Below are positions 25,496 through 36,140 of a stretch of DNA of 64,000 nt, one piece after another (the stretch's first letter is position 1; each line of letters opens with the position of its first letter). The notes under the pieces are model-generated. The model worked only from the letters and a program-made list of their open reading frames with translations. It was not told where the DNA came from and made no database searches. The stretch comes from Chloroflexus aggregans DSM 9485 (GTDB lineage: Bacteria > Chloroflexota > Chloroflexia > Chloroflexales > Chloroflexaceae). The translations under genes and the position numbers were made by a program. The stretch is from positions 3,113,353-3,177,352 of the forward strand of contig NC_011831.1 in the NCBI RefSeq assembly GCF_000021945.1. Reading direction: 5' to 3'.

Positions 25496-28249
25496 TTACG
25501 GAATCAACCCCAACCGTCGCCCACGTGCCACCGCTTGCGTGCGTGAGGCGACGCCTAGTTTGTTAAAGATATTGTTGATATGCGATTTCACCGTGCTCAC
25601 CGCGATTACCAAACTTGTCGCAATCTCATGGTTGCTGCGCCCCTCGGCCATCAGGCGCAAGACCTCGATCTCACGCTGGCTCAGTGGTTCGGGTAAAGTT
25701 GGCGGTGCCGACGTTACCGGCATACTCATTGGCAAAGGCTCATCGTTGTCTATGAGGGAAAGGAGGTATTCACCGTAGGCCGGTAAGCGTTGGCGCACAC
25801 TAAGCCGGTTCAATACAATGCGGAGCGGTTCACCGGCTTGCACAAACGGTGTCACGATTCGTTCAACCGTCGCCAAATCAAGTGCCGTCACGATCAGGTC
25901 GGTCGCATCTTCACCGGCAGCAAGGAGGGCCAGCGCACGCAGCAGGGCGGCATCAAGGGGAGCCAGCATCTGCCAGGTCTCACCTTGTGTTGGCGCAGCC
26001 AAGGCGGCGGCCAGCGCATGGAGTTCAGCGCTATCGCCGGCAGCACGGGCCCGCGCCAATCGCCATTCGTACTGGGCGCGGATAATATGTTCGCGCGCGT
26101 AGAAAGCGGCGATCGGCATCATGCGAAACTCAACCGGCGGGTGCAGTTGTGCTTCGAGCAGATACTCGGCGGTTACGAGATCACCCTGTTCTAGCGCCAG
26201 TTGGGCCTCGAATCCGTTCAACACGGCTAGCACCCAATCAATCTTACGTTGACGGGCCAGAAAGCGGGCCTGCCGCACAACACGTAATGCACCGGCCACA
26301 TCGCCTCGTGCCCGATTGATCCGTGCCGTCACGATCAACAGACACAAATAGCTCGTTGTGTTCCCCGGCTTGATCGAACTCTCGGCTTCGGCCAATGCCG
26401 GTAATGCTCCGGCAAACTCATGACGCACACCGTGCAGGTCGGCCAGCGTCAGAAAAGGCAACCCGATACCGGGTGATGCGCGATCGCGGTTGCGTCGCAG
26501 CATGTGGTTAATCGTCTCGCGACACGTCTGAATAGCAGCGCCAATCGAACCCCGCAGCGCTTTCGTATACGCATCATCGCTCGTGGCCATCGCCGATATA
26601 TAAGGCAAGCCGGCATTGAATCCATTGACAATTGCCTCACTAAACGCTTGCTCGGCACGCATCAGATCGCCTTGGGCGAAGTATGCATATCCCAAATCTT
26701 TAGCAACTCGCATCCGTAGGGCTTGATTATCGGTTTGCAACCATGCCAACGCTTGTTGCCCCTCTTGCAGCACCCGGTCGTTATCACCGCGTAATACGGC
26801 CAGTCGGACGCGCACTGCGCTCAATTCGCCGCGCAGATTAGCAATTGGTCCAAACGACGTTGCAGTGCCACTCGCGACCCCGGCCAATGCCCGCTCGGCG
26901 ACGGCGATCCAATATGCTGCATCTTCCATCTGATAGTCGGTGGTTGCCAGCCACGCGCGTAATAGGGCTAAACGCGGATGTTGCTCGAAGGCCGTATCAG
27001 GGATTTGTGGCAACCAGCGGCGCAGCGTGGCTTCACCCACCTGTGACACCACCGCCAGGCCAATCGGTTCAATCATTGCGACTACGTCATCAAACGCCTG
27101 TGCGCGTAAGGCATGGTTGATGGCAAGCGGCAACATACCGTGGGCAGCAAACCATGCACCGGCCCGTCGGTGAAGTAGGGCGATGCGGTCTGGGCTACTC
27201 CCGGTTTCGAGCCGTTCACGCAGCACATCGGCGAAGAGATGATGATAACGGTACCAATTACGCTCGGTATCGAGCGGGAAGAGAAACAGGTTGTTGCGTT
27301 CAAGTTCGGTCAAGATCGACTGGCTGTACGAACTGTGGCTCTGTTCATTGATTTCCCTTTCATTGATGCCGATCACTGCATCACACAACGGTCCGCACAG
27401 CCGGTCGAGGATTGACGTTTGCAACAAAAATTGTTGGATGTGGAACGGTTGTTGGTTAAAGACATCTTCGATCAGGTAATCAACCACGTAACGATTACCG
27501 GAAATAATGGCATTGACCAGTTTATCTTGGTGCGGATGATGGCGTAAAGCCAGCGCCGCGAGATGAAGACCGGCCGGCCAGCCCTCTGTACTCTCCAATA
27601 GCGCAACAATTTGTTCCCGTTCGAGGGGTAACTCCATTTCTTCAAGCAAAAACGCTGCCGCTTCTTCGGGGGTAAAGGCCAGATCAAAACTGCGCAGTTC
27701 GGCTAACTGCCCTCGTGCTCGCCAGCGGGCAAGTGGTAACGGTGGATCACTACGGGTGGCGATGATCAATCGGCAGCGTGGGGGGAGATGTTCGACGAGA
27801 AAAGCTATTGCGTGATGGATCTGGTTATCGGTGATCGTGTGATAGTCATCGAACACCATGATCGTTGCATCACCTATTTCGACGAGATCGTTCAGCAACT
27901 CGGCACACCACTGTTCCGCATCCAGACCAGCTTCAGTTTCGAGCAACGCTTGAAGCTGTGCCCGTCGCGTCGGTGACAAGTGCGGTAATGCTTCCAACAA
28001 ATACGCGAACAACCGGCGTAGATCATTATCGGCGGCATCGAGGGTCAACCACGCAATTTGCGACCATTCCTTACCGGACTCACCGATCCATACGGCGAGC
28101 AACGAAGTCTTGCCGTAACCGGCCGGTGCGGTGATCAGAACAACCCGACTGTGTAAAGCGTGCCGCAACCATTCGTACAAACGAGGACGAGCTAACAACG
28201 ATGGGCGTGCTTCCGGCGGTTGCAGTTTGGTGCGTACCAACGGCATCAT
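25496..28249 (-). CDS. MalT-like (LAL/STAND) LuxR-family transcriptional regulator
   Basis: 917 aa, the usual size of MalT-type ATP-dependent activators. The first of two adjacent Met codons (28249) has GGAG 7 nt upstream. Order of parts: N-terminal [18 protein letters not shown] (typical MalT entry), Walker [18 protein letters not shown] (about 40-55), Walker B-like [10 protein letters not shown], a winged-helix/NOD region, a long TPR-like sensor region (about 400-820), and a C-terminal LuxR HTH ([37 protein letters not shown]). In MalT the TPR region binds an inducer sugar and ATP drives oligomerisation on DNA. It is divergent from the ChvE-type sugar importer with a 306-bp shared regulatory region, so that operon is its likely target. 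The inducer is unknown. Confidence 0.9.
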
Positions 28250-28555
28250 ACGCCAACTCCGTCTTGCTTTCCATGGTGATGTACCTAGTGTACCACGCCT
28301 AATAGGGTGTTAGCCGGTCGAACCAACCCAGATCGTTGATGTAGGGGAATCCCCCTAATGATGTGCTAGGAGTAACACCCCAGGCGCATTCAGGGTTGTC
28401 GATATGGGCAAACCGGTGTCACTGTGCTTCAATGGGCGTATCAGGATCAGACCACTTGCTACACACACATGGAGGTGTACCCGGCAACAAAAGTATTCGG
28501 CGTCCAGGTATATCCGCAACAGTGACGTTGGTTTATGTTCAAGGAGGAGTCTGTC
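28250..28555 (+). promoter_or_regulatory. Shared control region between MalT-like regulator and sugar importer
   Basis: This 306-bp intergenic stretch has nested inverted repeats. The outer pair is GGGTGTTA (28305-28312) and TAACACCC (28373-28380). Inside it lies TAGGGG (28342-28347) / CCCCTA (28352-28357) with a 4-nt centre, the size and symmetry of a dimeric HTH operator. Downstream, AAGGAGGAG ends 6 nt before the ATG at 28556. I could not fix a -35/-10 pair. Operator function is inferred from symmetry and position. Confidence 0.5.
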
Positions 28556-29710
28556 ATGTCGTCGAAGAAGATTCTGTGGTTCGTTCTGTCGTTGATGACG
28601 GTATTTGCGTTCATGGTGAGCGCATGTGGTGGTGGTACTACCGGTAGTACCGGTGGCAGCAGTAGTGGTGGCAGTAGTGGTGGCAGCAGCCAGCAGCTTG
28701 CGGTTGGAATCGTCCTTCCCACTAAAGATGAACCCCGCTGGATTCAAGACGAGACCCGCTTCCGCGAAGCGCTGCAACAGGCCGGCTATCAGGTTGAAAT
28801 CCTCTTCAGCCAAGGCTCATCGGCCAAAGAAAAAGAGAATGTTGAGGCCCTGATTGCCAAAGGCATCAAGGTACTGATCATCTGCCCGCACGATGGTACG
28901 GCTGCGGCGGCGGCTGCCGAAGCGGCCAAGGCTGCCGGTGTTAAGGTCATCTCCTACGACCGTCTCATTCGTGAGACCGATGCTGTTGACTATTACGTTA
29001 CCTTCGACAGCATTGCCGTGGGCGCCCAGCAAGCCCAGTATCTGGTCGATAACGCGAGTGGCAGCGGCAACCCGCTCTACCTGTACGCCGGTGCAGCCTC
29101 TGATAACAACGCCTTCCTCTTCTTCGAGGGAGCGTGGAAGGTGCTCCAGCCCAAGATCGCCGATGGTACCTTCGTGATCAAGAACTCGAGCGAGGCGGTT
29201 GCGCTCCAGAACAAGCTCGATCTCACCCGCGACGAGATGGCGAAGATCATCGGTCAAATTACGACCAACTGGGACTTCAACACCGCCAAGAACCTTGCCG
29301 AGGCCAATCTGACCGCTGCAACTGCCGCCGACAAAGGTACAGTCTACATTCTCGCACCTAACGACGGTACTGCGCGTGCGATTGCCGATGCCTTCGCCGC
29401 CGACAAGGACGTGACCAAGTACTTCGTCACCGGCCAAGATGCGGAGAAGGCTTCAGTGCAGTACATCATCGATGGTCGCCAGTCAATGACCGTCTTCAAA
29501 GACGTGCGCACGCTGGTCAAAGATGCGATCAGTGCTGCTGTGGCCCTGCTTGAAAACAAGCAGCCTGAGGCGCGTGGTTCCTACAACAACGGCAAGAAGG
29601 ACGTGCCGGCCATTCAATCGCCGGTGGTGACCGTCACCCGCGACAACGTGCGCGCCGCCCTCATCGACTCCGGTTATTATAGTGCCGGCGATTTCACTAA
29701 TCTCCCGTAA
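28556..29710 (+). CDS. chvE: ChvE/XylF-type sugar-binding lipoprotein of ABC importer
   Basis: Start at the ATG at 28556, after AAGGAGGAG; an ATG 7 codons upstream overlaps that site. 384 aa. Lipoprotein signal peptide with lipobox MVSAC (Cys at about 23), then a Gly/Ser-rich flexible linker. The mature part is a type I periplasmic binding protein: VGIVLPTKDEPRWIQDETRF, KENVEALIAKGIKVLIICPHDG, GVKVISYDRLIRETDAVDYYVTFDS and VGAQQAQYLVDNA closely follow the ChvE multiple-monosaccharide receptor (xylose, glucose, galactose, arabinose class). It captures sugar outside the membrane and delivers it to the permease. First gene of the SBP-ATPase-permease operon. The symbol is by family resemblance; ligand specificity is unproven. 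Confidence 0.9.
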   Translation: MSSKKILWFVLSLMTVFAFMVSACGGGTTGSTGGSSSGGSSGGSSQQLAVGIVLPTKDEPRWIQDETRFREALQQAGYQVEILFSQGSSAKEKENVEALIAKGIKVLIICPHDGTAAAAAAEAAKAAGVKVISYDRLIRETDAVDYYVTFDSIAVGAQQAQYLVDNASGSGNPLYLYAGAASDNNAFLFFEGAWKVLQPKIADGTFVIKNSSEAVALQNKLDLTRDEMAKIIGQITTNWDFNTAKNLAEANLTAATAADKGTVYILAPNDGTARAIADAFAADKDVTKYFVTGQDAEKASVQYIIDGRQSMTVFKDVRTLVKDAISAAVALLENKQPEARGSYNNGKKDVPAIQSPVVTVTRDNVRAALIDSGYYSAGDFTNLP

Positions 29711-29812: not shown

Positions 29813-31336
29813 ATGGAAACCCCTATTCTCGAAATGCGCCACATCACCAAAGAGTTCCCCGGTGTACGCGCACTTGACAACGTGACGTTTAGTGTCAAGC
29901 GCGGCGAAATCCACTGTCTCGTCGGGGAGAATGGCGCCGGTAAATCCACTCTCATGAAGGTACTCAGCGGTGTTTATCCGTATGGTACCTACAGCGGCGA
30001 AATTCTGATCAACGGTCAACCCCAACGCTTTACCGGTATTGCCGATAGCGAACGGGTAGGGATCGGTATCATCTATCAAGAATTGGCTCTGGTACCGGAA
30101 TTAACCGTCTACGAAAATATCTTTCTCGGCCACGAAATTAGTCGCAACGGCATCATTGACTGGAACGAAACCATCCGCCGTGCCGATGAAATGTTGCGTA
30201 AAGTCCGCCTCAATGTGAATCCGGCAGCAAAAATCCGCGATCTCGGTGTAGGCAAGCAGCAACTGGTCGAAATTGCGAAAGCACTAAGCCGAGCAGTCAA
30301 GATTCTAATCCTCGATGAGCCAACCGCTGCGCTCAACGAAGATGATAGTGAAAATTTATTGAATCTGTTACGTGAATTGCGCGATAACGGCGTGACCTGT
30401 ATTCTCATTTCGCACAAATTGAAAGAGGTGTTATCGGTCGCGGATACGGTGACGGTGCTACGCGATGGGAAGACGGTCTGCACACTTGATGCCCACAAAG
30501 GTGAGGTGAACGAGCAGACCTTAATTCGCAATATGGTTGGTCGTGAAATTACCAACATCTACCCCCGGCGTACCCATCAAACTGGTCACGAGGTGGTGCT
30601 GGAACTGCGCAATTGGTCGGTCTTCTCACCTGACGTCGGTCGCTATCTACTCCGTGATGTCAATATACAGGTGCGTAAAGGTGAGATCGTTGGTTTAGCC
30701 GGGCTAATGGGTGCCGGTCGGACCGAACTCGCGCTCAGTATCTTTGGGAATGCGCCGGGCTACCGCTTAAGCGGCGAATTGTGGCTCAAGGGGCGCAAAC
30801 GGCTGTTCCACCACCCGCGTGAAGCAATTGCCGCCGGGATGGCATATGTTTCAGAGGATCGGAAGGCGAAAGGTCTCGTGTTGATCCAGGATGTGCGTCA
30901 GAATATCACGCTGGCCAACTTGCGGGCATTGGCAACCAATGGCGTGATCGACCGCAATGCCGAGATTCAGATCGCCGAAAACTATCGTAAATCGCTCAAT
31001 ATCAAAACACCAACCATTGAGCAGCAAGTAGCGAATTTGAGTGGTGGCAATCAACAGAAAGTATGTCTCGGTAAATGGCTGTTTGTCCGACCCGATCTTC
31101 TGATCCTCGATGAACCGACCCGTGGTATTGATGTTGGGGCGAAATACGAGATTTATCAGTTGATGAACCAACTGGTGAGCGAAGGGATGAGCATACTGAT
31201 GATCTCGTCGGAATTGCCCGAAGTGTTGGGAATGAGTGATCGCGTCTACGTCGTGTCCGGTGGGCGTATCAAAGGTGAGCTGCCGATTGCCGAGGCGACC
31301 CAAGAGAAGATTATGGCGTTGGCAGTAGATTACTAA
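29813..31336 (+). CDS. gguA: Sugar ABC importer ATPase with two ABC domains (GguA/XylG/MglA type)
   Basis: 507 aa, the normal size for duplicated carbohydrate-type ABC ATPases that energise monosaccharide uptake. First domain: Walker A GENGAGKSTLMKVLSG, signature region LGVGKQQLVEIAKAL, Walker B ILILDEPTAAL, H-loop LISHKL. Second domain: degenerate P-loop GLMGAGRTEL, perfect LSGGNQQKVCLGKWL, Walker B LLILDEPTRGIDVGAK, and the usual loss of H-loop His (MISSELPE). This asymmetry is normal for the family. The first domain ends IRNMVGREITNIYP, the same hinge that appears as VELMVGSV in the ABC-histidine kinase encoded at 34026. Co-directional with the binding protein and the permease. Confidence 0.93.
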   Translation: METPILEMRHITKEFPGVRALDNVTFSVKRGEIHCLVGENGAGKSTLMKVLSGVYPYGTYSGEILINGQPQRFTGIADSERVGIGIIYQELALVPELTVYENIFLGHEISRNGIIDWNETIRRADEMLRKVRLNVNPAAKIRDLGVGKQQLVEIAKALSRAVKILILDEPTAALNEDDSENLLNLLRELRDNGVTCILISHKLKEVLSVADTVTVLRDGKTVCTLDAHKGEVNEQTLIRNMVGREITNIYPRRTHQTGHEVVLELRNWSVFSPDVGRYLLRDVNIQVRKGEIVGLAGLMGAGRTELALSIFGNAPGYRLSGELWLKGRKRLFHHPREAIAAGMAYVSEDRKAKGLVLIQDVRQNITLANLRALATNGVIDRNAEIQIAENYRKSLNIKTPTIEQQVANLSGGNQQKVCLGKWLFVRPDLLILDEPTRGIDVGAKYEIYQLMNQLVSEGMSILMISSELPEVLGMSDRVYVVSGGRIKGELPIAEATQEKIMALAVDY

Positions 31337-31370: not shown

Positions 31371-31606
31371 GCACAATGGTGTTTGGTAAATGATTACTGA
31401 GCGGAGGCTGTCATTTCGAAGGGTATTGAAGTTTGTCATTTCGAGCGGAGCGCGAAACCTTACCAATCCAGGCTTTCGCGGGCACTAGCGCGCCCACGAA
31501 ATGACAGCAGAGGGTCAGGGTGAGCGCATTTGTCATTTCGAGCGGAGCGAGAAATCTTGCCCACGCTCAGGCACACTGGTGTTTAGCAATGAACACAGTG
31601 CGGAGG
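31371..31606 (+). repeat. REP-like palindromic repeat cluster flanked by a diverged direct duplication
   Basis: The core begins TGTCATTTCGAGCGGAGCG. Full-length direct copies lie at 31434-31461 and 31531-31558 (28 bp, differing at four positions), a truncated copy at 31409-31419, and an inverted 11-bp arm ACGAAATGACA at 31496-31506. Outside these, a 36-37 bp segment starting GCACAATGGTGTTTGG (31371) recurs as GCACACTGGTGTTTAG (31571); the second copy runs into the permease ribosome binding site. It resembles short extragenic palindromes scattered in several phyla (from memory). It separates the ATPase and permease genes. Confidence 0.8.
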
Positions 31607-31611
31607 AGATA

Positions 31612-32811
31612 ATGACCACGCAGGGTACATTTGTTCAGAATCTACGGCGGGTGTTGGGGCAGAATATTCGCCAATACGGCATGTTCATCGCCCTATTTGT
31701 GATAATGATTATTTTTTCGATCACCACCAACGGTATTTTTATCTCGTCGCGTAACCTCAGCAATCTGATCAACCAGACCGGCTACATTGCGGTGTTAGCG
31801 GTGGGAATGACCCTGGTGATTATCATTCGCCACATCGATCTCTCGGTTGGGTTTTTGGCCGGCTTTCTCGGTGCGGTGGCCGCAATCGCACTGCGGTTCT
31901 GGGATTTACCGACCATTGTGGTGGTACCGATGGTGTTGGTATTGGGTGGACTGGCCGGTTTGCTGACGGCGTTGCCGGTCGCGGAATTGAAGATACCTTC
32001 ATTTGTCGCCTCACTGGCCGGTTGGTTGATCTATCGTGGTGCGTTGCAGTTGGTCACCGCCGGTACCGGTACCATTATTATCGAAGACGAGAGCTTCAAC
32101 GCGATTGGTAATGGTTTTATCCCCGATGTGCCGTTTACGCTGATCCCCGGCTACCATACACTCACCCTTCTGCTTGGGGTCATCGCGATTGTTGCCTTTA
32201 TTTTCAGCGAAATTCGTACCCGCAACCGGAAGCTGGCATACCATTTTGAAGTCTTACCCACCGACATGTTTGTGCTCAAGCTGGTCTTCATTTCAGCATT
32301 GATCGGCTTGTTGTCGTGGATTATGGCCGGCTACAATGGCCTCTCGTGGACGATGGTGATTGTGCTGATCGTGGTAGCGATCTACCACTTCATCACCACC
32401 CAAACCGTGTTGGGCCGCCACATTTACGCGGTCGGTGGCAACCCCGAGGCGGCGGAATTGAGTGGTATCAGCGTCAAGCGCATTACCTACATTGTGTTTG
32501 CGTCGATGGGTGTACTTTCAGCGCTATCGGGCATTTTGTTCGCCTCGCGGTTACGGTCGGCAACCACTACTGCCGGTACTCTGTTTGAACTTGATGCCAT
32601 TGCTGCGGCCTACATCGGTGGAGTGTCGGCGGCGGGTGGTGTTGGCAATGTGATCGGTTCCATCATCGGTGCGCTGGTGTATGTGTCGCTGACCAGCGGG
32701 ATGAACCTGATGGGTATTGATATTGCGTACCAATACATCGTGCGCGGTTTAGTCTTGGTCGCCGCCGTGATTTTCGATGTATCGACACGTCGGCGTGGCC
32801 GCGCCGGGTAA
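31612..32811 (+). CDS. gguB: Sugar ABC importer permease (GguB/XylH type)
   Basis: Start at the ATG at 31612, preceded by GGAGGAG; the open frame upstream runs through the repeat cluster and is not coding. 399 aa with about 10-11 hydrophobic helices and the branched-chain/ribose permease signature: FISSRNLSNLINQTGYIAVLAVGMTLVII, RHIDLSVG, and the conserved HIYAVGGNPEAAELSGISV loop that contacts the ATPase. The C-terminus has IAAAYIGGVSAAGGVGNVIGSIIGALV, typical of the family. It forms the membrane channel for the sugar delivered by the ChvE-like lipoprotein. The 275-nt gap from the ATPase gene is unusual for such operons and is filled with repeats. Specificity unknown. Confidence 0.92.
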   Translation: MTTQGTFVQNLRRVLGQNIRQYGMFIALFVIMIIFSITTNGIFISSRNLSNLINQTGYIAVLAVGMTLVIIIRHIDLSVGFLAGFLGAVAAIALRFWDLPTIVVVPMVLVLGGLAGLLTALPVAELKIPSFVASLAGWLIYRGALQLVTAGTGTIIIEDESFNAIGNGFIPDVPFTLIPGYHTLTLLLGVIAIVAFIFSEIRTRNRKLAYHFEVLPTDMFVLKLVFISALIGLLSWIMAGYNGLSWTMVIVLIVVAIYHFITTQTVLGRHIYAVGGNPEAAELSGISVKRITYIVFASMGVLSALSGILFASRLRSATTTAGTLFELDAIAAAYIGGVSAAGGVGNVIGSIIGALVYVSLTSGMNLMGIDIAYQYIVRGLVLVAAVIFDVSTRRRGRAG

Positions 32812-32938: not shown

Positions 32939-33997
32939 ATGGGCATCACCCGCGTCGTGTTGGCCGATGACCATGCCGTTGTGCGGGCCGGTTTGCGCAC
33001 TGCCTTAGCTGCCTTACCCGATTGCGAGGTGGTAAGCGAGGCGGCGACCGGCCCACAACTGCTCGCCGTACTGGCCCAGCATCACCCTGATTTGTTGGTG
33101 GTTGATGTCGCGATGCCGGACTTTGATCCGATTGCCACCATCCGCCAAATCCACGCCGATTATCCGGCTATGAAGATATTAGTTGTCAGTGCCTACGATG
33201 ATCAGTCTTACGTCGTCGGCCTGCTTGCCGCCGGCGTTAACGGCTACCACCTCAAAGACCAGCCGCTCAGCGATCTCCAACTGGCAGTCCAACGGATTAT
33301 GGCCGGTGGCAACTGGATCTCTAGCCCGTTGCTCAGCCGCCTGATCCAGGCTGCACCACAAATAGCGCATTCCTCACCGATCACACTCACCAAACGCCAG
33401 CGTGATCTCTTACGCCTGATCGCGCAAGGCTACGACAACCGGCGCATGGCCCAAGAGATGGATCTGAGCATTAAGACCATCGAAAATCACCTGACCGCCC
33501 TCTATCGCACCATTCGCGTCAGTAGCCGGCTCGAAGCCTACCAGTTTGCGCTGCGCCATCCCGAATTACTGGCCGAATCGGGACACGAAGCTGCTCTCAG
33601 CCGCGAACCTTCAACAAGCCCTGCCCCACTGATGGTCATGATCATTGACGATAACGAGCGCTACCGTGCCCAACTCAAGCGTATGATCGGCAAGGCTTGC
33701 GCCGAATCGCAGATCTACGAGGCGGAGGATTGCCACGAAGCGACCCGCTTACTCCGCCAGATCACGCCCGATCTGGTCTTCGTGGATGTGATCTTGCAAG
33801 ATGGTGACGGAATTCAATGTCTCCGCCGGCTGAAAAGCGTCTCACCCCACACGCGGGTGATCCTAATCAGTGCCTATCCCGATCGAGAGTTTCGTCGGTT
33901 GGGTCTGGAAGCCGGCGCGCTCGCCTTCCTCGATAAAAAAGACCTTGATGCGGCTACCGTGCGGCAAGTGGTCGAAGATACCCTACGGCGCAAGTGA
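32939..33997 (+). CDS. Response regulator with REC-LuxR HTH-REC architecture
   Basis: 352 aa. Residues 4-120 are a NarL-type receiver: acidic pair Asp10/Asp11, phospho-acceptor Asp56 in LLVVDVAMPD, Ser84, Lys106. Residues about 148-205 are a LuxR HTH (LTKRQRDLLRLIAQGYDNRRMAQEMDLSIKT, broken here only by text). Unusually, a second complete receiver follows at about 231-348: Asp237/Asp238, Asp283 in LVFVDVILQDGDG, Ser311, Lys333/Lys334. NarL regulators normally end after the HTH. Both receivers keep all catalytic residues, so two phosphorylation inputs are possible. It follows the sugar permease on the same strand after a hairpin. It is convergent with the ABC-histidine kinase gene, 28 nt between stops, its likely partner. 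DNA target unknown. Confidence 0.9.
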   Translation: MGITRVVLADDHAVVRAGLRTALAALPDCEVVSEAATGPQLLAVLAQHHPDLLVVDVAMPDFDPIATIRQIHADYPAMKILVVSAYDDQSYVVGLLAAGVNGYHLKDQPLSDLQLAVQRIMAGGNWISSPLLSRLIQAAPQIAHSSPITLTKRQRDLLRLIAQGYDNRRMAQEMDLSIKTIENHLTALYRTIRVSSRLEAYQFALRHPELLAESGHEAALSREPSTSPAPLMVMIIDDNERYRAQLKRMIGKACAESQIYEAEDCHEATRLLRQITPDLVFVDVILQDGDGIQCLRRLKSVSPHTRVILISAYPDREFRRLGLEAGALAFLDKKDLDAATVRQVVEDTLRRK

Positions 33998-34025: not shown

Positions 34026-35618
34026 TCATCCTGCCACACCAACCCCTTCTGCCGGGAATGGTGATGGATTAGGAAGCTCGATCTGCAATTCCAATCCACC
34101 CCACGCCGATCGCCCAATCTGCAACGTACCGCGTAACAGCGATACCCGCTCACTGATGCTGATCAAGCCAAAATGCTTCTGTTCGGCGAGATGCTGCAAG
34201 TCGGGCGGTGTCGCCATTCCGCGCCCATTATCGGCCAATCGTACCATAATTCCCGCCGCCGACGTGCGTCGTACTTCGAGGAGCACCCGGCTAGCGCGGG
34301 CGTGCTTGCGGACATTGTTGAGGCCCTCTTGCACAATCCGAAACACTGTCAGCTCAATCGTCTCTGACCAGCGTTCGAGCGGTTCGGCGAGGATCAACTC
34401 CACCTGAATCCCGGTCTGCTCACTCCATTGGCTCACCAACGAACGTAACGCCGCTGCCAGGCCGTGGCTGTCGAGCGTTGGTGGACGCAGATCGCTACAG
34501 ATTTGGCGCAACATGCCCACTACTTCGCGAATACCACGGCGAATGACTTGCAGTTCGTGTACCGTTTCTGCCGCTTCGATCTCCTCTTCGAGGTGTTCGA
34601 GTTGGTAATTAAAACTGAGCAAATCTTGAATCACCTGATCGTGCAATTCGCGAGCGAGGGCTTTGCGCTCAGCTTCCCGTTCGGCAATCAGCCGGTGATT
34701 CGCCTCTTGCAGCGCTTGATTTAATTGATTGAGGGCGACCATCTGATCGTGGAGCCGCCGCACCAATTCGCGGTTGAGCGAATCTTGCTCGGCAAGATTG
34801 TCACGCAGTTGCAGTTGTTGTTGGCGCAACGATTCGGCTTGCTGCTGAGCCTGATAATAATTCTCAAATGCCCAAATTAACGGTGTGACCCGTTCTTGGC
34901 GTACCGAACCCACCATCAACTCCACGATCTCACGCGGTGTTGTATCGGCGGTACGGCGGAGTGCCGCTTGTCGCCCCTGGTAAAGCACTAATACCCGATT
35001 GGTGATCGCAAAAAGCAGGTTGAGATCATCGCTACTGAGAATGATGCCGGTGCCGTTGGCTGCTAACGTGCGCAGATGATGGAGGATCGTCTGCTGGCGG
35101 GCAAAGCCGATCGAAGCGAGAGCCTCATCGAGGATCAGCAACCGCCCAGGTCGGACAAATGCGCGCATCAGGGCCACGAGCTGTCGTTCTTCTTCGGTCA
35201 GATCACCGGCACGCTGATGGGCAAAGGTGTGTGGCAAGCCAAACTGTTCGAGCCACCGATACGCAATCTGCGCCATCGTTGCCTGATCGAGCCGTTGCCG
35301 TCTCTGTTCGCGGCCAAGAAAGATGTTCGCCAATACCGGTAACAGATCGACCAGCGCCGGCGTTTGGGGTACGAACTCAATCCCGTGCTGTTGCGCTAAC
35401 GGTGTCCGCCAGCGCATTGGCAGCCCCTCGATCTGCATCTCACCGGAGGTGGGTGGGTAGATGCCGGCCAGCGTCTGCAAGAGCACCGACTTACCGGCGC
35501 TGCGCAGGCCAGCCACGCCGAGGATGTCGCCATGGTCAAGCTCGAAACTAATCCCGCTAAGGATCGGCTTTGCGGCGAGCACAATCTCAAGATCGCGAAC
35601 GGTAAGTAGTGGCGCCAT
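34026..35618 (-). CDS. ABC-ATPase domain fused to HisKA_3 histidine kinase
   Basis: 530 aa. Residues 1-240 are an ABC ATPase of the carbohydrate-importer type: Walker A GLRSAGKS (37-44), Q-loop FVPQ (Gln85), Walker B LLILDE (160-165), and a family hinge VELMVGSV (232-239). The signature is degenerate (DLTEEERQ at 139-146 instead of LSGGQQQ) and the H-loop His is lost (SSDD at 195-198). Residues 250-315 are a Gln/Leu-rich coiled coil. Then a NarX-type kinase: His326 in ARELHDQVIQDLL, N-box EGLNNVRKHA (Asn434, Asn435), G-box DNGRGM (463-468) and GLISISERV. No transmembrane segment. It most likely senses importer state or nucleotide and phosphorylates the neighbouring REC-HTH-REC regulator. The fusion itself is seen directly; the sensing role is inference. 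Confidence 0.92.
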   Translation of the reverse strand: MAPLLTVRDLEIVLAAKPILSGISFELDHGDILGVAGLRSAGKSVLLQTLAGIYPPTSGEMQIEGLPMRWRTPLAQQHGIEFVPQTPALVDLLPVLANIFLGREQRRQRLDQATMAQIAYRWLEQFGLPHTFAHQRAGDLTEEERQLVALMRAFVRPGRLLILDEALASIGFARQQTILHHLRTLAANGTGIILSSDDLNLLFAITNRVLVLYQGRQAALRRTADTTPREIVELMVGSVRQERVTPLIWAFENYYQAQQQAESLRQQQLQLRDNLAEQDSLNRELVRRLHDQMVALNQLNQALQEANHRLIAEREAERKALARELHDQVIQDLLSFNYQLEHLEEEIEAAETVHELQVIRRGIREVVGMLRQICSDLRPPTLDSHGLAAALRSLVSQWSEQTGIQVELILAEPLERWSETIELTVFRIVQEGLNNVRKHARASRVLLEVRRTSAAGIMVRLADNGRGMATPPDLQHLAEQKHFGLISISERVSLLRGTLQIGRSAWGGLELQIELPNPSPFPAEGVGVAG

Positions 35619-35675: not shown

Positions 35676-36140
35676 TCACCCCACACGTGTGCCACAGTTT
35701 GGGCAAAAGATGGCATGACTTGGCATCACAAAACCACACTGCCCACAGATTTTTGATCCGGCGGCCGGCGTGGGAGATGGAGCTTCGCTGATCGGCACCG
35801 ATTGTGCGGTAGGTGACGTAGCCGGTGGCGGTGTCGTTGGAGTTGGCTCGACGAAAACCTCACTTTGGGCCTGCTTCAGCTCTTCTTCACGCGCCACGAG
35901 CGTTGCCCGCAATTGATCGATCGCCAGGCTCAATTCGGCCAGCGAAGGTGCATGAATGTGGCCGGCGCGCTGTAAATCATAGGCGCGTTGGCCCAATTCC
36001 ATGAGTTTGAGATCGACCTGGCGGCGAAGTTCATTAATCTCAAGCTGTAAGCGCGTCGTTTTTTGGAATTTCTCAGCCTCGAATTTTGCGCGGTCGGTGA
36101 CCTGTGAAAGTGTTTTGCCGATTTGATCGAGCAGTCCCAT
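35676..36140 (-). CDS. Coiled-coil protein with C-terminal zinc ribbon
   Basis: 154 aa; AGGAGAAGG ribosome binding site before the ATG. Residues 1-95 are helical (FEAEKFQKTTRLQLEINELRR, VDLKLMELGQRAYDL), a probable coiled coil. A Pro/Thr/Ser-rich linker follows (about 97-128). The C-terminus is a zinc ribbon with two CxxC knuckles, CGQCG and CPNCG (about 132-152). This arrangement occurs in many small bacterial proteins of unknown role; the ribbon is probably structural or a protein-binding module. It lies 57 nt upstream of the ABC-histidine kinase gene on the same strand and could be co-transcribed with it, but a functional link is not shown. Confidence 0.82.
   Translation of the reverse strand: MGLLDQIGKTLSQVTDRAKFEAEKFQKTTRLQLEINELRRQVDLKLMELGQRAYDLQRAGHIHAPSLAELSLAIDQLRATLVAREEELKQAQSEVFVEPTPTTPPPATSPTAQSVPISEAPSPTPAAGSKICGQCGFVMPSHAIFCPNCGTRVG

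Follow-up and report, generated by a model that had tools for sequence, protein, structure and literature searches.

Bacteria are known to read the activity of their transporters through sensor kinases, and the passage of the signal between the two proteins has been hard to study. In the BceAB-BceS and PstSCAB-PhoU-PhoR systems the kinase and the ATPase are separate proteins, the kinase being membrane-bound, and UhpB reads a transporter-like receptor. Transporter-linked kinases are already known (PMC6978683, PMC9100948, PMC10384115), and three kinds bear on the locus described here: (i) the BceAB-BceS and PstSCAB-PhoU-PhoR systems, in which the state of an ABC transporter is relayed by the kinase, which governs the transporter genes (review: PMC6978683); (ii) the SLC5/STAC kinases CbrA, CrbS and RpuS, in which the histidine kinase carries a fused transporter component, the CrbS and RpuS systems of S. 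fredii having LuxR-family regulators as partners (PMC9100948); and (iii) XylFII-LytS and CuaD-CuaS-CuaR, in which a sugar-binding protein and a kinase control the operon of a sugar ABC importer (PMC10384115). A search of the open-access literature found no described fusion of an ABC ATPase with a histidine kinase.

Here we characterize such a fusion in a window of 64,000 nucleotides from Chloroflexus aggregans DSM 9485 (contig NC_011831.1, positions 3,113,353 to 3,177,352), and document its conservation, distribution and genomic associations. To a first-pass annotation of the same DNA we add a response regulator that forms a dedicated pair with the fusion, a palindromic box upstream of an importer operon, and a permease-binding protein unit found beside the fusion in part of the phylum. 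The wiring that joins fusion, regulator and importer is well supported. We further propose, as a reading that we lean towards, that the fusion serves as sensor kinase in a two-component system devoted to a CUT2 importer, with a pseudo-ATPase input domain that docks on a permease, and that it would sense sugar or the state of the transporter.

Architecture of the fusion protein

The fusion gene (34026..35618, minus strand) encodes 530 residues in one frame from an ATG start, and is present as a single full-length copy in its own genome (one contig of 4,684,931 bases). Pfam models identify ABC_tran at residues 20-167 (8.7e-21), HisKA_3 at 317-382 (9.9e-13) and HATPase_c at 422-517 (8e-6), each exceeding its own gathering score. 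Residues 1-240 (34899..35618, minus strand) form an ABC domain of the CUT2 sugar-importer type, predicted to bind ATP without hydrolysing it; residues 241-315 (34674..34898, minus strand) form a conserved linker and coiled coil with a TPxIWAxExYY motif, P246 and W249 being invariant; and residues 316-519 (34062..34673, minus strand) form a HisKA_3 and HATPase kinase in which the phospho-acceptor His326, N435, D463, G465 and G467 are invariant. Against NCBIfam the ABC half is matched best by the LsrA, YtfR, XylG and RbsA models, and the kinase half scores with those of MctS, UhpB, NarX, LiaS and NarQ, all of these scores falling far short of the equivalog cut-offs. The sequence has no evident transmembrane segment, the largest 19-residue hydropathy mean being 1.39. 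An AF2 model has pLDDT values mostly of about 85-95 over the ABC half, with a fair kinase and low confidence at the junction, and a Foldseek search with it returns importer and other ABC nucleotide-binding domains (NBDs).

The first-pass annotation had described a carbohydrate-importer-type ABC domain, bearing Walker A and Walker B motifs, joined through a coiled coil to a full kinase. These elements are borne out: the three Pfam domains share one frame, the CUT2 models match best, the Walker motifs lie at residues 37-44 (GLRSAGKS; 35487..35510, minus strand) and 160-165 (LLILDE), and the kinase is complete in its motifs, which are kept in all of the 30 fusion sequences aligned with the exception of H482 (29/30). 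A HisKA_3 domain with its phospho-acceptor His, an HATPase_c domain and a cognate regulator of the LuxR/NarL type, as expected of a HisKA_3 sensor kinase, are all present.

Conservation and loss in the ABC half

In the same alignment (n=30), K43 and S44 of Walker A and D164 of Walker B are invariant, so that the ABC_tran fold of a CUT2 ATPase retains both nucleotide-binding motifs. The features of a competent site are missing, as had been noted for the single sequence. In place of the LSGGQxQ signature stands LTEEERQ (residues 140-146; 35181..35201, minus strand), in which the second Gly is replaced by Glu (E143) in 30/30 sequences and followed two positions on by an invariant Arg (R145), standing where the canonical signature has R/K/Q after the second Gly; the H-loop position (residue 197; 35028..35030, minus strand) is Asp, and His occurs there in 0/30. 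The catalytic Glu is Glu in 22 sequences and Asp in eight. Where the second Gly of LSGGQ has been mutated in other ABC proteins, hydrolysis is affected rather than binding (PMC4459825). Each loss singly is not unusual, since the ordinary GguA-like ATPase of the same operon already shows both kinds in different NBDs: its NBD1 has a degenerate signature (LGVGKQQ), and its NBD2 lacks the H-loop His (ISSEL). What is unusual in the fusion is that both losses fall in one NBD and that a Glu invariably replaces the second Gly of the signature.

The ABC half has an estimated dN/dS of 0.11-0.12 and the kinase half one of 0.05-0.07, where not saturated. Together with the invariant residues, these values indicate that the ABC half has been kept by selection. 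It is best described as a conserved, non-decaying domain that is predicted, from residue conservation, to bind ATP without turning it over; the proposal that this half binds ATP but hydrolyses it poorly, made from one protein, thereby extends as a prediction to the whole family. Also invariant (30/30) are L101 of a NIFLGxE motif (35316..35318, minus strand) and E104, in the region of the coupling socket. L101 aligns with Tyr490 of ABCB1 in the coupling-helix socket, a position that we take to be equivalent to F508 of CFTR. The NIFLGxE motif after the Q-loop is also common in ordinary sugar NBDs, and its retention in the fusion is therefore partly inheritance.

A soluble protein with these properties might alternatively be a cytosolic energy sensor, whose ABC half, by binding either ATP or ADP, signals the energy state to the kinase with no permease docking, the regulator then fitting sugar uptake to cell energy. 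The lack of a transmembrane segment, and invariant Walker motifs combined with lost hydrolysis residues, would suit nucleotide sensing, and the fusion gene of one genus lies away from the importer genes (see below). We nevertheless regard this as an unlikely account, if one of real weight: a CUT2-type NBD with coupling-socket residues kept in all sequences would be needless for such a sensor, as would the dedicated permease and binding protein that lie in the gene cluster of the fusion in four families.

Distribution and origin

The first-pass annotation had called for a search for the two-domain architecture across genomes and had named an assembly error at the junction as grounds for abandoning its reading. 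Full-length homologues of the fusion occur in 26 of 400 Chloroflexota genomes, representing 13 genera, and in separate contig records named Chloroflexus, Anaerolineae and Thermoflexus. Recurrence of the same junction in these genomes and records shows that the fusion is neither a chance product nor a local assembly error. An artefact of either kind, mis-assembly or two separate proteins misread as one, is scarcely credible: one open frame, an identical junction and a conserved linker are found in 30 sequences from many independent assemblies, and the homologues by themselves already refute mis-assembly. Split genes were rejected on the same grounds. One homologue, in genome G238, carries an additional C-terminal 640 aa; here the reading continues through neighbouring high-GC DNA, and the extension was not counted as a domain.

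The ABC halves of the fusions form one clade, placed beside NBD1, NBD2 and the single NBDs of CUT2 ATPases, and one fusion event is accordingly the simplest reading of their origin. Outside Chloroflexota, the fusion was found in none of 296 genomes of the phylum of Nonomuraea, in a search that held no internal positive and whose query matched Chloroflexota at far lower E-values. The Nonomuraea genome itself yielded ABC and kinase matches only as separate ones, and plasmids searched for the fusion gave separate ABC matches only.

A dedicated response regulator

A gene on the plus strand (32939..33997) encodes the cognate response regulator, of the form REC-LuxR HTH-REC, with a second receiver following the LuxR-type HTH. 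Both receivers have an intact acidic pair, phospho-acceptor Asp and Lys (D10, D11, D56 and K106; D237, D238, D283 and K333), and these sites are kept in 25 orthologues. A regulator of this organization was retrieved from 26/26 of the fusion-bearing genomes and from 1/374 of the others, no score falling between the two groups as far as the 1e-55 cut-off; the association gives Fisher values of 5.5e-40 per genome and 2.5e-21 per genus, with shared ancestry uncorrected in both. The pairing extends to a genus (f2/g9, probably Herpetosiphon) in which the fusion gene is unlinked, lying about 0.46 Mb away in G110, while regulator and importer are still together. An orphan regulator without the fusion occurs in genome G024 (locus L110, 3001-4032), beside apparent PadR-like and ABC-2-type genes.

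Association with CUT2 importer genes

The importer operon in the window comprises, on the plus strand, genes for a ChvE/XylF-like sugar-binding lipoprotein (SBP1; 28535..29710, the true start being probably at 28556), a GguA-like tandem-NBD importer ATPase (29813..31336) with motifs ordinary for its type, and a GguB-like permease (PERM1; 31501..32811, the true start being probably at 31612) with an ordinary coupling loop, GGNPEAAELSGI. The longest ORF of PERM1 opens with a likely spurious extension (31501-31611; ..CHFERSEKSCPRSG..). The GguA of the operon has the motif pattern typical of such ATPases, and the importer itself is therefore expected to function. The neighbourhood of importer, regulator and fusion recurs in nearly all fusion genomes other than those of f2/g9, the importer set consisting of a ChvE/XylF-like binding protein, a permease, and an ATPase with one NBD or two in tandem. 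In loci L049, L060 and L109 the regulator-associated importer has a single-NBD ATPase and not the tandem GguA type; the occurrence of single-NBD importers in some lineages indicates pairing of the sensor with more than one kind of importer.

Two further genes were noted nearby. A 917-aa MalT-like LuxR regulator (25496-28249) is encoded divergently from the importer operon in most of the Chloroflexus loci inspected, and may be a second regulator of the importer promoter region. A gene for a 154-aa coiled-coil/zinc-ribbon protein (35676-36140) precedes the fusion gene by 57 bp and has the same orientation; it was rejected as a partner of the fusion, having no match in the other loci scanned.

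With an importer ATPase encoded next door in nearly all loci, and one of the single-NBD kind immediately before permease and fusion in L049 and L060, the ABC half could be supposed to pair with an NBD of that ATPase, GguA or single-NBD, and to report or throttle the transport cycle. NBDs dimerise head to tail, as such pairing would have it. With E143 and no H-loop His, however, the mixed dimer would be without a fully competent ATP site; at least three different ATPase types co-occur with the fusion, so that no single partner interface is conserved; and the permease-binding protein unit described below would be left unexplained. We consider this role rather improbable.

A candidate operator upstream of the importer operon

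Comparison of promoter regions, in which simple repeats alone were uninformative, identified a palindromic box, TAGGGG-N4-CCCCTA with an A/T-rich middle, represented in the window by TAGGGGAATCCCCCTA (28342..28357, plus strand). This is the only exact TAGGGGN4CCCCTA in its genome. With two mismatches or fewer allowed, 18 of the 20 intervals upstream of importers (8.3 kb) contain the box and the remaining 390,845 bases of the same loci have none, a ratio that is somewhat optimistic since the box was discovered in the same data set and some of the intervals were drawn after the first matches were known. Its recurrence across the phylum stands. The box often lies between divergent regulator and binding-protein genes, a position that suggests an operator, and on this basis it is probably that of the REC-LuxR-REC regulator. 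The first-pass annotation had tied the fusion functionally to the importer, and that tie now draws support from operon linkage, the dedicated regulator and the shared upstream box.

A second, imperfect copy of the box is found about 25 bp from the first in Chloroflexus (28360-28385; L063 and L064). The G302 genome (L048, L120) holds 155 matches to TAGGGG-N4-CCCCTA with one mismatch or none; those listed have a GC-rich middle, as in TAGGGGCTGGCCCCTA, and are probably a dispersed repeat unrelated to the box with the A/T middle.

A permease and binding protein encoded with the fusion

Six genomes, belonging to four families, have the fusion gene directly preceded by a second permease gene (PERM2) and a second binding-protein gene (SBP2), in the order PERM2-SBP2-fusion, and the unit encodes no further ATPase. 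PERM2 is a BPD_transp_2 protein and SBP2 a Peripla_BP_4 protein nearest to RhaS/RbsB, and their genes overlap in at least two of the six genomes. The PERM2 sequences form one clade (100/97). Their cytoplasmic coupling loop differs from the usual one, on the strength of six sequences: the Asn of its GxN motif is present in one of the six, versus 40 of 41 other CUT2 permeases in the data. Judged by sequence, this departure would be expected of a permease served by a different NBD, and the fusion supplies the sole NBD in the unit, which supports docking. The unit is missing in most lineages, including that of the window; docking there would consequently have to use PERM1, which already has its own ATPase. 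The proposal that the ATPase-like domain docks on the permease therefore stands in part: it gains from the six genomes with their own permease and binding protein and no other ATPase, and from the invariant L101, but in the lineage of the window there is no dedicated permease and docking on PERM1 is conjectural.

Many CUT2 importers use two permeases, and PERM2 could simply be a second one served by GguA, an alternative that we count against our preferred explanation. In its full form this alternative makes PERM2 and SBP2 extra parts of a GguA-served importer and the ABC half a relic, the kinase sensing otherwise through the coiled coil. Absence of the unit from most lineages would agree with it, as would the somewhat faster evolution of the ABC half than of the kinase; its dN/dS, however, together with ATP-binding residues held invariant over large distances and the new invariant residues E143 and R145, is at odds with a relic, and PERM2 and SBP2 sit with the fusion and not with GguA even where importer genes lie downstream (L058). 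We find this version quite implausible.

Proposed mechanism

Beyond the wiring described above, we infer the docking, the dimer geometry, the ligand and signal, the direction of regulation and the role of the box as the regulator's operator. In the explanation that we favour, the importer under control would be a CUT2-type monosaccharide importer of the ChvE/XylF-GguA-GguB-like kind, and the ABC domain of the fusion a pseudo-ATPase that retains ATP binding and a permease-coupling surface but has lost hydrolysis. Two such domains, brought together by dimerisation of the kinase, would face the coupling loops on the cytoplasmic side of a dimeric CUT2 permease, which offers two NBD positions; the partner would be PERM2, with SBP2, in part of the phylum, and probably PERM1 in Chloroflexus. 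Arrival of a sugar-loaded binding protein would change the conformation of the permease, the ABC pair would follow, and the coiled coil would transmit the change so that the kinase phosphorylates the REC-LuxR-REC regulator, which would then act at the TAGGGG-N4-CCCCTA box before the importer operon.

A bolder form of this explanation, which we advance tentatively and hold at somewhat less than an even chance, is that an entire ABC importer has become a receptor spanning the membrane. SBP2, PERM2 and the ABC-domain kinase, the last replacing the ATPase, would form a signalling complex that senses sugar without transporting it, with the kinase dimer at both NBD sites; where a lineage lacks PERM2, this kinase would dock on the working importer.

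Evolution has apparently fused the point of contact between transporter and kinase to the kinase itself, yielding one soluble protein with an input that can be mutated and assayed. If docking on the permease is true, ABC importers can be converted into receptors, and the PERM2-SBP2-kinase gene set of several Chloroflexota families would be the place to prove such a conversion. The regulatory output, for its part, can be tested directly through the operator-like box, which is nearly unique.

Comparison with described systems

A BceS-type system combines a kinase of two transmembrane segments with a BceAB-type exporter, whereas the fusion has no such segment and its neighbour is a CUT2 importer; unlike the kinases of BceAB-BceS and PstSCAB-PhoU-PhoR, moreover, it has the ATPase domain, predicted to be non-hydrolysing, as its own input domain. 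The fused part of the SLC5/STAC kinases is a 13-TM secondary symporter domain, accompanied by STAC and PAS domains. The part fused in the present protein is an ABC ATPase domain and soluble; ABC_tran, HisKA_3 and HATPase_c are the sole Pfam domains of the fusion, and the membrane part, if used, would be a separate permease. In XylFII-LytS and CuaD-CuaS-CuaR the binding protein contacts an extracellular domain of the kinase, and the sensor includes neither permease nor ABC domain. The fusion, being without transmembrane segments, has no extracellular domain to bind such a protein, and a binding protein is nevertheless encoded with it.

The two halves separately recall familiar proteins. The kinase half resembles the HisKA_3 kinases of the UhpB/UhpC and NarX/LiaS types, with whose models it scores, but its input is an ABC domain, and not a transmembrane or extracellular one. 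The ABC half resembles the CUT2 ATPases GguA, XylG and RbsA in its model matches and in its position as sister to CUT2 NBDs. It differs from them as a single NBD in which the second Gly of LSGGQ has become Glu, the H-loop His has been lost, and a histidine kinase is attached.
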